Below, in pieces: positions 25,149 to 34,061 of a stretch of DNA of 64,000 nucleotides (positions within the stretch are counted from its first letter, which is position 1; the number at the start of each line of letters is the position of its first letter). The DNA is from Cryphonectria parasitica EP155 (taxonomy: Eukaryota > Ascomycota > Sordariomycetes > Diaporthales > Cryphonectriaceae). Below the pieces are notes generated by a model. It was not told where the DNA came from. It saw nothing but the letters and a program-made list of their open reading frames with translations, and did no database searches. The position numbers and the translations under genes were made by a program. The DNA is taken from NCBI RefSeq assembly GCF_011745365.1, contig NW_024468912.1:4960001-5024000 (forward strand). Reading direction: 5' to 3'.

Positions 25149-28100
25149 TTAAACAAGCATCCCTTTGACTCCCTTGTCCCGAGCGGGAATCCAAGTACTT
25201 GAGACAAACGCAATCCCAATCCGAACGTAAACTGACTTTGCGGATGCTGGCCTTAATGCGCCTGCCTTTACCAGCAGAACTGCGTAGGTTCTCCCATGTT
25301 CTCCCTGCAGTATAGAAGACTTGAGCTTTCCGAGCACTACACATTTTGACGGGATCTCTGTTTCCGCTCCCTCCGTGACATCCAAGATGACTTTACCGGT
25401 CTTCCCTGTCGCTGCAGCTGTGACATCCACATTCCGTACCACCACAGCCATTCCCATTGAGCTTGACTTATTGTCACTGCTATACCAGTATTCCGTCCCA
25501 CTCTCTAAGAATTGTGACTGGATGTCACATTGTTCCCATTCCACTTGTGCAAAGGGCAGATCTGGGTAATCAATAGGTCCTTCGTACGACATGCAAGACC
25601 ATGTTGGTGGTGCTGAACGGGCGAAGCTGATCCTTCTTAGAGTAGTACAGTCGGAAGCTCTGTGCCAAAGCATGCTGCGTCGAAGCATGCCGGGATTTTT
25701 CGTATCATTCAAAACCCCATAGCCGCCGGAGACACCGAAGCTTTGGACGAGCCGTTTTTCGAGTCCTGATATCGCAACAGGACGGTCGGTTTGTCGAGTG
25801 AAAGCGAGGCGAGAGTATTGCTTGCATAGGCTCTGGTGAAATAGAATTTTTCCCCCTCGAGAGGACTCGATGGCAACTTTGGGGAAGTTCGGGTCTCCGA
25901 GAAAAGATGCAAGCGTACTTAAAAACAGGATAAATTAGATATTTTGCAAATACTGGCGAAGGAAGGTGACAGAAACACTTACTTGTCCATCCGTGCCATT
26001 GTCTCACATCGAACACCTCCACCGCACTCCCAATATGTTTGTTTGTCCGTGAAATATATCGTTCTTCGAGCCAATGCTCTCTCTTGAAGCACCCACCCAC
26101 GCTGACTGAGATTACTCTCCAGCACATCCTGGTTGAAGTTATCCATAAATTCGCACACAAATATAGCGGGCTTCCCTTCGTATTTCAGGGATATATTCTT
26201 TCTCTTCTTACGCTCGTTGAGAAAGGAATCCCCTTGTCCCAAAACTGAGCATGCGGCGAGAACACAGTAAGCGTTGCTAAACACAGCTTCCATGCGCGTA
26301 GCTTCATTCTCAAAATCCCCATCAGGGCCTTGAATGATACAAATCGAATCGATCCACAGATACTGCAAGTTCAATTCCCTAGTGACAGTGATTGCGTTTC
26401 TGAATGTGAGCGGTAGATCGTAGAAGTCAATGCCTTTTTTGTGGTTGTCAATCGTGGACGGGAATGTGCAAAAGTGAGGAGGTTTGCCCCACGGGTGAGA
26501 CAGAGCAGAATATCTCATGTTGTCTCTAGGCTGCGTTTCATACAGGCTGAGAGATGGATTAACGAGTGTCCCCACATATATCAACCTTGTAGGAAGGTCC
26601 CTTGCACTCGAGCGCCTGCATTTTGGGTGATTATGATCGCAGTCAATCAGCCACTGCCTCATGATCTCGAAATATGAGCTGCTAGCGACTTGAGGCAATT
26701 GTGGAAGACCTATTTGCCACCAAGTTTTGGACTGAGACATTTCATCGTGTTCTTGAAGATCGTTTACCATCAGTAAGATCTCAATTAACCGCTCGACTAA
26801 TCCATCTGATGGATACGTACCTGGACTTATGTGCACAGTCAAGACCGGGGGATGGCCCTCATTTAGCCTCAAATTAGACTGGTCTTTGTCGAAATACACC
26901 GTTGATCCATAGCTGCGATCAATATTCTTGCAGACTTCCCATCTCATCCTGCAAAAATCACAGGTCATGGATCGACGTTCAAGCTCTTCTAAATTGTCTT
27001 GGAAACCCAGGGTACCAGCCCAAAGGTCCAACGTCCGGCATTTGCTACAAAGCTTTGCGACTTCCCCGTGTCGTGGCACAGTATCATACCAAACACGGTT
27101 TTTGAGGACACTTTGGGCAAACGCATTGTCTATGGGGAAATTCCATACACTATCAAGCTGCTTGAAGATTAGTCAAGCATAGCAACTCGCATAGTGGACG
27201 ACACCCACCTACCGGCTTTAAAGTTGATGTACGTCAGTGATGTCCAGGGTCGAGATATTGATGTCATGACTTACTTCCTGTAAGCTATGTAAGTATTTAT
27301 CGCTGGCGAAGTAAGAGGTATTTCGAGATCTTAACCAGTATATATCACTCACATGCTGGTAATATTCAGTCAGCTCTCGACACAGTGATTGCGCGGGGAT
27401 CGGTAACCTTGACCGCAGTGTCGCAGGTTTCACAGAGAACTTACACTCTGTAATCAAGAATTAGACAGCTTGCGCAAATATACCTGTCCCTGAGGCTGAA
27501 GGTGGATTCATCGGGCACTTACGTACTGCAATAGTGTCAGTATATACATAATTTACCTTGTCCAGCTGGTACTTACGGTCTATGGGCGCGAAAAAGGCCG
27601 CTGAATTAGCAAGTCTTTAACCCCAAGCAGGCAGCTGGCCTAATTTGATTAGACACGCACCATTTTCTAACAGCGTGTTAGTTTCTTCATGAAGTTTACG
27701 TCGGTGACGATCAGAGCCACTTACTTTCTGCTCTATTGCGGGAGCCGATAATAATTGTTGCGGCCCGTGTTGTGTCAATGAAGGGCTGGAGAGCCCATCT
27801 CTCTTCGTGCCTGTGAACCAGTAAGCGTCATCTTTCTCACCCTCTTCCTCAATTGCTCGGAGCGCGTTGCAAAAATCCTCAGCTGTGGCCCGGAACTTTG
27901 ATGGTCCGAAAATCGGTTCAGGTGGTGGAGGCTGTACTGGGTTCCGAGATTGCGAGTCATCAGTCACGACAATATGAGGGTGTTGCGCGCCTGTGTATTG
28001 GGGGTCATCGATGTCCGTTGTAGATTCAGGGGCCAACCGAAATGTTTCGCTGCGCGGTGAAAGCGGCACAACGAGGAGCTTGTCTTCTACGATACGAAGC

Positions 28101-29557
28101 AGGTCTCTAATGGCTGTTGAGGCTCGTCCTTCCGGGTCTGTTTTGATGTGTTCCATGTATGCAATGACTGTTGGGTGAACTCTGGCTGTCTTGGTCGGCT
28201 GATCATACAACCAATACGGTCCTGGATGGCCGTCAGAGCTAACGATACCCTTGTTCAACTCTTCAAGTTTGCCGTGTCCGTAGAGTAACCAAACGATTAT
28301 CTCCAGAGTAACGCATCCCATAGACCATATGTCATAAAGCCGAGACCAGGCGGCGTTTGGCCTGGTCTTGACCTCAGGAGGCTCATATGATGGTGTCGCG
28401 TCTCGTGTGCTTGTCGGTCCTCGCTGTGCTGTTGCAGAAATATGGCGTTTTGCCAGCCCCATGTCAGCGATCTTCCAGACGCCCACATGGGTGTTGTCCT
28501 TGAACATGAGAATGTTCTCCGGTTTCAAGTCGCCGTGTCGATAGGATTCTGTCTTCTGATAGTTGTGGAGTTTGTGCAGAGCGTCTGCTAGGCCACTCAG
28601 CTGATGCACTACCTCTTTGATGAGGTTGGACGATAGTGAAGGTCGCTCTTCATCCTGGTACAGATCTCGAAGGCTCCCTCCATCAGCCCATTGAAACAAG
28701 AAGTACCGCCTTGTTCCTTTTGTTATGATAGCCTTAACTGAGACGATATGCGGGTGTCCAAGACCGCTGGTTTCCTCCAACGCTTTGGCCTCGGCCTCCC
28801 ACTTGGCCAAAATTTGCTGTGACCGCTGATTTCCGGACTGCTTCTTCACGCTCGCAGATGCCTTGAGCTCTTTGAGAGCGGCATTTGCAGGTGAGCCATC
28901 CACCTACATGTAGTCAGCAAAGTGTTGGAAGACTGTACTAGGCATGGTAATTTTGGAAAAGCAGTAATGTCTGACCTTTCTCATGATCTTCTCCTGGTGT
29001 GACTCATGGATAGTAACCTGAGAGACGTCACCGAACGTACCCTCTTTCTTTTCCGAATCCATAAAGGTGAACGGGAGGATATGTCCCTCCTTTAGCACAA
29101 GGCGTACGTAGGAACTCGGAAATACCGGTGCCAAAAACATCCACTGTCTCTGTTCAACGTCCGCAATCCGAGCCGGGCGCCACAACTTTGTAGAAAACCA
29201 AGGATACTTATCGATGCTATTGTCGAATGGCAATGAATAGTCGCTGACATGGTGTTGTTTGAAATTGGCCATTACCGTTTTCAAGTCTTTCGATTTGAAG
29301 CGGCTGTAGACGCAGATTGCGAAAAGCTTCTTCGCCGATTCGAGAATGAAGTCAATGACTTCGTCGTCACCACTGCCTTCGGGGCATTCATTGCCGCTTG
29401 GATAGAACTCATGGATAATGGAATTTCTATTGATCAAATCTTCAACAGACCCGTCAGGGAAAAACCAACTGCCCTCCGGAAAGACAGATTTGACCCGGCA
29501 CTCTGCGAGCTGGTCTTCTAGGTTAGGCGGTGCAGAATCTAATGATTCGAACGACAT
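25149..29557 (-). CDS. Protein kinase-HET domain fusion with micro-exon array
   Basis: Proposed exons: 29557-28976, 28903-27725, 27666-27661, 27579-27577, 27525-27523, 27447-27445, 27355-27353, 27277-27275, 27215-27213, 27160-25983 and 25917-25149. They give 1243 residues with no stop. Residues 1-185 are an N-terminal region shared in layout with the neighbouring kinase. The kinase domain follows with Lys205 (ALKELK), HGDLKPEN (317-324, Gly for Arg of HRD), DMG (341-343, for DFG) and PPE (369-371). Residues 588-595 come from the micro-exons. The HET part has Cys pairs C633/C636 and C662/C665, YSALSHPWG (812-820), LWIDSICIIQ (863-872) and RGWVLQE (949-955). HET domains drive incompatibility cell death; the kinase could be the sensor or regulator (inference). 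The GTCAGA donor of intron 1 is weak, but the frame and kinase alignment support it. The gene could instead be two genes if the linker is not spliced. Confidence 0.8.
27161..27724 (-). other. Array of eight introns separated by 6-nt and 3-nt exons
   Basis: In gene orientation the block reads as introns of 58, 81, 51, 75, 89, 75, 59 and 52 bp. They start with GTAAGT, GTGCGT, GTAAGT, GTAAGT, GTAAGT, GTGAGT, GTAAGT and GTAGGT, and all end in AG. Most have a CTAAC, CTGAC or CTAAT branch-point motif 10-20 bases before the AG. The exons between them are AAAATG, ACC, TAC, AGT, CAT, GAA and CCG. All boundaries are phase 0. The introns do not resemble each other. Intron 2 could also use an earlier AG (27601), but that exon would carry an in-frame stop. 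Confidence 0.75.
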
Positions 29558-31696: not shown

Positions 31697-34061
31697 ATGC
31701 CAACCGTCATACCACAACAGAAAGATCCACAGTCAATCTATACTGTCGGCGACAAAAACAGGAGGGACACATCAAGTTTGCGACCTCGGACTAGTATTAC
31801 ATCCTCACCCGAGTACTCGGTCTCGCCGTCGCGAGGCCTGAATACCCTCGAATTGCCGAGTTTATTCTCGTCTGATGTGGACTTGCCGGCTCGTAAATTG
31901 ACTGTCGAGGAAGATGATGGCCTGTTAATTGTGAGTAAATCCATACATATTATCCAAAAGTTGAGGCATACTTCCGCTGATTTCTAAACATTATCGGCAG
32001 AATAAAACTTCAGCGTCTAAGACCTGGCCATATAACGGCCCCATCGACGTGCGAGACTTCAACATCGACAGAGCAGCCATTAGAGGGGAGGGTGTTCCAA
32101 CAATTCGACACGAGTCTGAGGGCCCCCAATTACCAAGTGAAAAATCTTATATCACGGACTTGGGTGCTCAAGGTCGCATCATCGCCAAGGCACATACAGC
32201 ATCTGTCACCCCTGTACCCATTCTACTGGAGACTCTACAAGGACCCACGACCTTGCAGGATCGTCTAGTGGAGGCTCGCCAGCGCATTCCGGGCCATACT
32301 GAGAAGAAAGGTTATTTTCCCGAGAAAACTTTCAACAACGTTCTAATCACCAGGGAGTCTGTGAAGAGAGAGTTAGAAATATGCTTCAAAGGTGTTCATG
32401 GCCCTGGTGTTATCAACGGGTATACGGACGCAATATTTAGCTGGACTAATCAGCACGGAGAAGTTACATCATTTAGGAAAATCTTCGCCGTTTTGGTCCT
32501 GAGTGAGAAACTCTCTTCTATAGGACTATTCATCGATGAGGAAGTCACCGACCGAGACTTACCTCTCCAAAAGGTCTTTCGACACAACGGAAAATCCAAC
32601 CTCTTCGATTTCATCCGCAGGGGCGACACTCCTGGACATTCTCAAGTCCTACAGTGCTTCAAGGACTGGACTTCAGGAGCTATCTTGAATTTTGACGAAT
32701 GGCAATGGACCACCCAACCTCCCTTTTTCTATAAAGGAGAGCGCAAGAATGTTGCTCAATTCCGATTCGAAGATCAGATCCCTCTCCCATTCACATCAGA
32801 CAGTCGATATGACGGGGATGATTTGGGTCAACTTGAAGTTGAAAGCGGTTTCAGCTGTGTTTTCAAAGTGGAATTGCACCCTGAGCAGCACGGCTTTCAT
32901 GGGTACGGCGTATGTACCGGTATCCTATGGACTGAAATTTGAGTGTAGACACATCTGACGCCCGGCAGTTCTCATGTCAACATTTCGCTGTCAAGTGCCT
33001 CACGTCCAGGAATAGAGACGAGTTCAAGCGAGAAGCAAACGTGCTCTTGAAATTCAACGACGAGACGAACGACCACCTGGTATCACTGCTGGCAACCTAT
33101 GAGCAATTCAGCAAATTTTATCTCATCTTCCCATGGGCAGAAGCCAATCTTGAAGAATACTGGAAAAATCGAGAACCTAATCCGACGATGAACCACGAGA
33201 CTGTTCTCTGGATAGCAAAACAATGTCGAGGCCTTGCGGATGGATTGGCCCGAATTCACCGCTGGGACTCGTTTCCCAAGACACCAGACACTAACGGGAC
33301 CCGAGGACGACAACAGAACCTTGTCGTTCCCACACTAGACACTGGAGAAAACCATCTCATCGGTCACCACGGCGACATCAAGCCACAAAACGTCTTATGG
33401 TTCCAGAACCCAGAAGAGAAGACTGATCGAGGAACACTCAAGATTACAGATTTCGGCCTGAGTGAATTCAAAGCAAGCCATACCACGTTCCACAAAGCAG
33501 GAAGCCGCTCTCCAGTTTCTCCGAGTTTTCGTCCACCCGAATATGACTTAACGGGACAGAACGGCCGCTCCCACGACATATGGGCCCTGGGATGCGTGTA
33601 TTTGGACTTCGTTACCTGGTTACTAGGCGGCTGGGACATGGTAGCAAATTTTGCACACGAACGGTCGGCGGTGGATCCAAACTGGAAGGACTTGCCTACC
33701 GATACCTACTTCGAAATAAAGAGGAAAGGATATGAAAGAATAGCTGCCGTCAAGCCAGCTGTCAAAAGAGTAAGAGCGTTCCTACACGTTTCTGTGAAGC
33801 TACTTTGGGTGCCTAACGTTACGAATAAAGTTCATAAGAAGTTTACATGGCCATTCAAAATGTACCGAGTACTTGCACGATTTTCTCAACCTTATTGAGA
33901 TGGATATGCTGCACCCCAAACCACACAGCCATTCGGAAGAGAGCCGGATTGAAATCCGGGAACTCAAGTTGAAGCTGACCGAACTACATGCGAAGTGCGA
34001 TCAAGAACACTACGCTCTTACGCCAGCTTCTTGGAACCAGACATGTTGTAAAAGCCTGTAA
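31697..34061 (+). CDS. Protein kinase, fungal type paired with HET genes
   Basis: Exons 31697-31930, 32001-32909, 32969-33769 and 33831-34061, with introns of 70, 59 and 61 bp (GTGAGT, GTATGT, GTAAGA donors; CTGAC and CTAAC branch sites), give 724 residues in frame. Residues 1-360 are an N-terminal region with low-complexity start and a helical part (LQDRLVEARQ ... KIFAVLVLSEKL) like that in the kinase-HET protein. The kinase domain runs about 365-690: Lys390 (FAVKCL), LIFPWAEANLEEYW, HGDIKPQN (515-522), DFG (542-544), RPPEYD (570-) and the end segment KCTEYLHDFLNLIEMDML. It has the full catalytic set, so is probably active. A short helical tail (IEIRELKLKLTELHAKC) follows. Head-to-head arrangement with the kinase-HET gene suggests a linked function. 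Confidence 0.88.

Follow-up and report, generated by a model that had tools for sequence, protein, structure and literature searches.

The block that joins the kinase and HET parts of a gene in Cryphonectria parasitica EP155 is probably a genuine series of eight short phase-0 spliceosomal introns of the ordinary kind, which separate codon-sized coding exons within one kinase-HET gene. The array is far beyond chance expectation, and a distant paralogue in the same genome keeps the same layout; thus, coding microexons whose flanking introns are removed by intron definition, as the initial annotation proposed, are the best supported reading of the block.

The gene model and the array

The gene lies in a stretch of 64,000 nucleotides, referred to here as the window. 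Its predicted spliced form is a single open frame of 1,243 codons, and kinase and HET were the sole Pfam matches at E <= 0.01; no NACHT or ankyrin match was found in the scanned exons. The predicted features, in the order of transcription, are as follows (the array was parsed base by base, and the other exons and introns come from the spliced frame).

28976..29557, minus strand: exon 1 (194 codons)
28904..28975, minus strand: ordinary intron, 72 nt, phase 0
27725..28903, minus strand: exon 2, protein kinase domain (PF00069, Pfam E 1.4e-25)
27161..27724, minus strand: intron array, eight phase-0 introns and seven microexons
27724-27667, 27660-27580, 27576-27526, 27522-27448, minus strand: array introns 1-4 (58, 81, 51, 75 nt)
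27444-27356, 27352-27278, 27274-27216, 27212-27161, minus strand: array introns 5-8 (89, 75, 59, 52 nt)
27661..27666, minus strand: microexon 1, AAAATG (K-M)
27577..27579, minus strand: microexon 2, ACC (T)
27523..27525, minus strand: microexon 3, TAC (Y); in the paralogue TAT (Y)
27445..27447, minus strand: microexon 4, AGT (S); in the paralogue AAG (K)
27353..27355, minus strand: microexon 5, CAT (H); in the paralogue CAT (H)
27275..27277, minus strand: microexon 6, GAA (E); in the paralogue CCG (P)
27213..27215, minus strand: microexon 7, CCG (P); in the paralogue CCC (P)
25983..27160, minus strand: HET exon (PF06985, Pfam E 6.9e-27)
25918..25982, minus strand: ordinary intron, 65 nt
25149..25917, minus strand: last exon including the stop codon, without a Pfam match

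The parse agreed with the initial annotation in the coordinates, intron sizes, phase 0 and microexon letters. The array donors are GTAAGT in five introns, and GTGCGT, GTGAGT and GTAGGT in one each; AG closes every intron, and a CTNAY branch-site candidate is present in each of the eight. The weakest of these candidates, which lies 30 nt from the AG in intron 2 and reads CTTAC in intron 6, count against the microexon reading. Six of the exons are consecutive 3-nt exons, compared with five in the paralogue. In both copies a donor-like site (GTACGT at window position 27526, GTATGT at L062:3389) overlaps the AG preceding the Y codon; as the chain scans showed, its first base is the G of that AG, so that it precedes the donor used by 4 nt.

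By computation, all 36 donor-acceptor pairs and 128 of 128 microexon subsets are in frame and open through the kinase and HET exons; the direct 564-nt join, also described as in frame in the initial annotation, is likewise so. If any single intron is retained, the frame stops shortly downstream of the kinase exon and before HET, with the sixth intron as the sole exception. Inspection by eye suggests a further probable in-frame intron of 69 nt (GTACGT...CAAG) inside the HET exon, at 26752-26820 on the minus strand; the intron of the paralogue at roughly the corresponding position (L062:4108-4157) makes it likely. If it is spliced, the protein is 23 residues shorter; the frame is open with or without it. 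A second kinase gene of similar build lies nearby (window 32049-33898, plus strand), and resembles the second of two tandem kinases elsewhere in the genome (G000:C2, L063). Another gene near the array, also in the window, is closest among named relatives to proteins of Diaporthe (88-89% identity), which makes an origin in Diaporthales likely.

The spacing of the splice sites had been called unlikely by chance, and this holds. We searched 200 dinucleotide shuffles of the 64-kb window for chains of introns joined by 3-nt exons; the longest chain was 7 in the window, compared with 1 (89/200) or 2 (111/200) in the shuffles. Under a looser rule (exon lengths of 3 to 15 nt that are multiples of 3) the window had a chain of 8 and the shuffles at most 3 (a chain of 3 in 27/200). 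When only the block was shuffled (n=20,000), the maximum of 3 was reached once. By the same rule, chains of at least 4 in 64 records of the same genome (297,697 bases, overlapping parts counted; 28 other HET loci are among the records) were solely this array and that of the paralogue. An unrelated record (L027) had a chain of 3 under the looser rule, and no chain longer than 2 was found in the 28 other HET loci (L034-L061, the match with short flanks). A strict three-donor pattern with 3-nt exons and introns of 45-75 nt had one match in the 43.8-Mb genome, namely this array. The idea that 3-nt exons are a genome-wide habit was rejected, as pattern matches were fewer than in the reversed control: two perfect GTAAGT donors with a 3-nt exon matched 3 times genome-wide, twice in this array (control, 13), and with a 4-nt exon 4 times (control, 13). 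NACHT genes gave 34 matches.

The paralogue and the linkers of related proteins

The distant paralogue (G000:C8, L062) is 49% identical to the window gene in its kinase stretch, and 55% (main) and 36% identical in two HET-exon stretches. Its kinase-HET joint has eight phase-0 introns of 54, 61, 55, 68, 96, 77, 53 and 51 nt, with the microexons ACT, GGATCCTCACAAGAC, TAT, AAG, CAT, CCG and CCC in this order, where the second, GGATCCTCACAAGAC, is a 15-mer that codes GSSQD. Spliced in silico, the paralogue gives a 1,219-codon frame, and the rule-based scan recovered its chain of eight unaided, starting from L062:3202, where the kinase exon ends. The CCC exon requires the AG in GGTCAG as its acceptor, since the adjacent AG would leave an 8-nt, frame-breaking exon; this choice between two nearby AGs was counted against the microexon reading.

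Paired from the HET side, the five microexons nearest to the HET exon in window and paralogue encode Y/Y, S/K, H/H, E/P and P/P. Three or more identical residues out of five occur in 0.2% of random codon draws, and two of the three identical residues differ in the third base only (TAC/TAT and CCG/CCC). The first two microexons differ between the copies (KM and T vs T and GSSQD), which was counted against the microexon reading; GTGCGT is the second-intron donor in both. The initial annotation suggested looking for the same 8-residue linker or the same intron positions in orthologues; in the paralogue, eight phase-0 introns with seven microexons occupy the corresponding joint, and Y, H and P are shared, but the first two microexons do not match.

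The homologous introns of the two copies are not alignable in global comparison (z from -2.2 to 1.9), and one of eight reaches p 0.014 in local comparison. The predicted array layout is thus conserved between the copies while the intron letters have diverged, and the predicted array predates the duplication behind the two copies of this genome. Within each array, pairwise similarity is near chance (2/28 intron pairs in the window and 3/28 in the paralogue at p <0.05), consistent with the earlier remark that the introns are not copies of each other. A tandem duplication of an intron-codon unit as the origin of the array has no support, the introns within the arrays being hardly more alike than chance, though an old duplication may have occurred. 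Nor are the introns similar copies of the introner kind when compared within each array; elsewhere one self-hit was obtained.

With the spliced protein of the window gene as the query, 331 of the 7,997 candidates scored matched at E <= 0.001. Kinase and HET occurred in one protein in 120 of the 120 relatives among the matches listed, as read from the Pfam column. When a portion of the paralogue served as the query instead, 689 proteins matched at E <= 0.001, 120 of them listed. After both searches the relative set consisted of 173 proteins, of which some from the paralogue search are HET only. The linker consensus of 48 chosen relatives is D-Y-x-L-P-P-L-x-x-W-E-F-x-V-D-N-x-F-A. For the linker profile we used the 96 of the 173 relatives that had an anchorable linker and passed the filter, and left out the other 77; Y leads its column (39/96), and so does L (73/96).

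The paralogue linker scored 31.3 bits against this profile with the microexons and 21.4 bits without them, and none of 2,000 random-codon linkers and 2 of 2,000 order-shuffled linkers were as good. The window linker fits the profile weakly (26.4 bits with the microexons, 24.2 without); 147 of 2,000 linkers made of random codons and 342 of 2,000 made by shuffling were as good, which was counted against the microexon reading. The support for the window peptide thus comes mostly from the way it pairs with that of the paralogue.

The closest annotated models give no support for the microexons. Some Fusarium models (P0036, P0045, P0050, P0071 and P0074) agree up to one point and diverge just at the linker. 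In a Cytospora model (P0002), SSRT is followed directly by QLNEVW without linker residues, and this was counted against the microexon reading. The Fusarium differences and the Cytospora gap are likely annotation gaps at unrecognised microexons, although P0002 could equally reflect true direct joining. Another kinase-HET protein, from Colletotrichum (P0014), is named tryptophanyl-tRNA synthetase and has that Pfam domain too; it is probably a merged gene model.

In the AlphaFold2 model of one relative (P0159), residues 499-515 have pLDDT <50 and order resumes at about 516-520; D-Y-T-L-P-P stands at 510-515, counted back from the invariant F527. In this model, the residues that match the microexons thus close a flexible linker and directly precede the ordered HET-side module. 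A fold search with the P0159 model gave 119 matches, of which the 50 listed are kinases or kinase complexes, none of them at E <= 0.001.

DNA of relatives was searched for in viral contigs and none was found there. Bacterial and archaeal genome contigs yielded three HET loci, and 0 of 15 matches in the two assemblies behind these loci cover HET-exon residues 1-146. HET-domain genes (L064, L065, L066 and L067-L081) are present in assemblies labelled Hymenobacter and Deltaproteobacteria. The HET loci in bacterial metagenome-assembled genomes are probably fungal contamination.

Predicted splicing of the array and alternative explanations

The array microexons are probably real coding exons, to judge from the sequence features described above. 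Each intron would be recognised across itself, since 3 nt of exon leave no room for the splice complexes of both neighbouring introns at the same time. In introns of 51-89 nt the splice sites are paired across the intron, and the footprint of U1 spans the whole of a 3-nt exon; because of this, neighbouring introns would not be committed together and would be removed in turns, in a staggered or sequential manner. The main mRNA product would most likely include all seven microexons, and would encode a linker of eight residues, K-M-T-Y-S-H-E-P, immediately ahead of the folded HET-side module. Occasional or regulated skipping of microexons could possibly vary this linker, and any such skipping keeps the frame because every donor and acceptor is phase 0.

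The array may be kept chiefly as a diversifier, yielding up to 128 linkers by skipping. This is a special case of coding microexons, so that the probabilities of the two overlap, and we regard it as a tentative possibility. Every microexon is symmetric and every subset stays in frame, both copies are HET-domain genes, and there is a cited precedent in the truffle nank genes; however, the retention of Y, H and P and the fit of the paralogue linker to the relatives' motif suggest that the codons matter in their own right. HET domains have a role in incompatibility and cell death in fungi. A conserved codon-by-codon array in such non-NLR death-effector genes might be kept because it lets splicing set the length and sequence of the linker combinatorially, with retention giving the kinase alone, so that splicing would tune or gate the lethal domain, a proposal that we consider speculative. 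If it is true, the annotated kinase-HET linkers across Pezizomycotina are often wrong.

Removal of the whole block as one long intron, from the first donor to the last acceptor, with the inner sites as decoys or relics and with no microexon in the mRNA, is unlikely. The open direct join would permit it, and the annotated Cytospora protein without linker residues agrees with it, though such models may have missed these residues. However, the block holds eight near-perfect sets of donor, branch site and acceptor, all phase 0, and these are kept in a paralogue whose introns have diverged; moreover, the residues of the paralogue microexons match the linker motif of relatives, and decoys would not need to preserve codons. 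The initial annotation had also considered stepwise removal of the 564 nt. In recursive splicing, a ratchet point consists of an AG directly followed by GT, with no exon left. The AG-to-GT spacing at the seven joints is 3 or 6 nt, so that these are not ratchet points, and stepwise removal is weakened as a rival because the bases between AG and GT would remain in the mRNA.

Two adjacent genes, with the kinase gene terminating at a stop within the block, the HET gene following it, and splice sites in between that are relics or chance matches, were rejected as highly improbable: the kinase frame does continue to a stop at 27617, and retention of the first intron gives a kinase-only product, but the relatives among the matches listed are kinase-HET fusions without exception, and the intron chain is not due to chance and recurs in the paralogue.

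If the array is spliced as coding microexons, two genes have an intron between nearly every codon of the linker, and the array has outlasted a divergence that erased the similarity of the introns themselves. With exons shorter than the splice-site footprint, it would be a small, countable system for the order and the errors of removing eight adjacent introns under intron definition. A recheck of annotated kinase-HET linkers is suggested.

Comparison with known systems

The view in the initial annotation that no such series had been described in a fungal gene fails. Passages in PMC3689799, PMC4986451 and PMC10197012 that cite Iotti et al. (2012) mention alternative splicing of microexons, called 'codon-sized' or '3-bp long', in NACHT-ankyrin genes of Tuber melanosporum; the wording in PMC10197012 is '3-bp long microexons', and that in PMC4986451 is much the same. 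A comparable array in a kinase-HET gene was not found in the literature searched, which included few subscription papers. What is new here is an array of probable codon-sized exons in another gene family, conserved between paralogues, and, if it is spliced as read, such arrays extend from the NLR-type genes of truffles to kinase-HET genes.

Like the truffle nank genes as these passages describe them, the window gene has several 3-bp exons in a row and is a fungal gene of the nonself-recognition type. However, the nank genes encode NACHT-ankyrin receptors with tens of microexons and reported alternative splicing, whereas the window gene is a kinase-HET gene, not a NACHT-ankyrin gene, with seven microexons that are conserved in a paralogue and whose splicing is predicted. 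Compared as proteins, the fungal kinase-HET proteins of Pezizomycotina resemble the window gene in domain order, in length and in the segment that precedes the HET-side module; kinase followed by HET at a similar length was indeed found in the predicted spliced frame.

In a passage on Xlr2 of Trichoderma (PMC11121469), which also cites Schizosaccharomyces pombe work on intron definition, functional microexons are called previously undescribed in filamentous fungi. Plant microexons of 1-15 nt are described in part of PMC8831610, and plant papers, as far as their relevant passages go, report a 1-nt microexon and two adjacent microexons. Like these cases as described there, the window microexons are too small for annotation tools and conserved, and their intron positions would be recognised without exon definition; the Xlr2 and plant cases involve a single microexon or a neighbouring pair (5 and 12 nt), in contrast to the seven in a row of the window array. 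Stwintrons (PMC9024468 and others) are also fungal introns that require consecutive removal steps. However, the outer intron of a stwintron has a splice element that is interrupted by an internal intron, whereas each of the eight introns of the window array has complete elements, with a donor, a branch-site candidate and an AG of its own.
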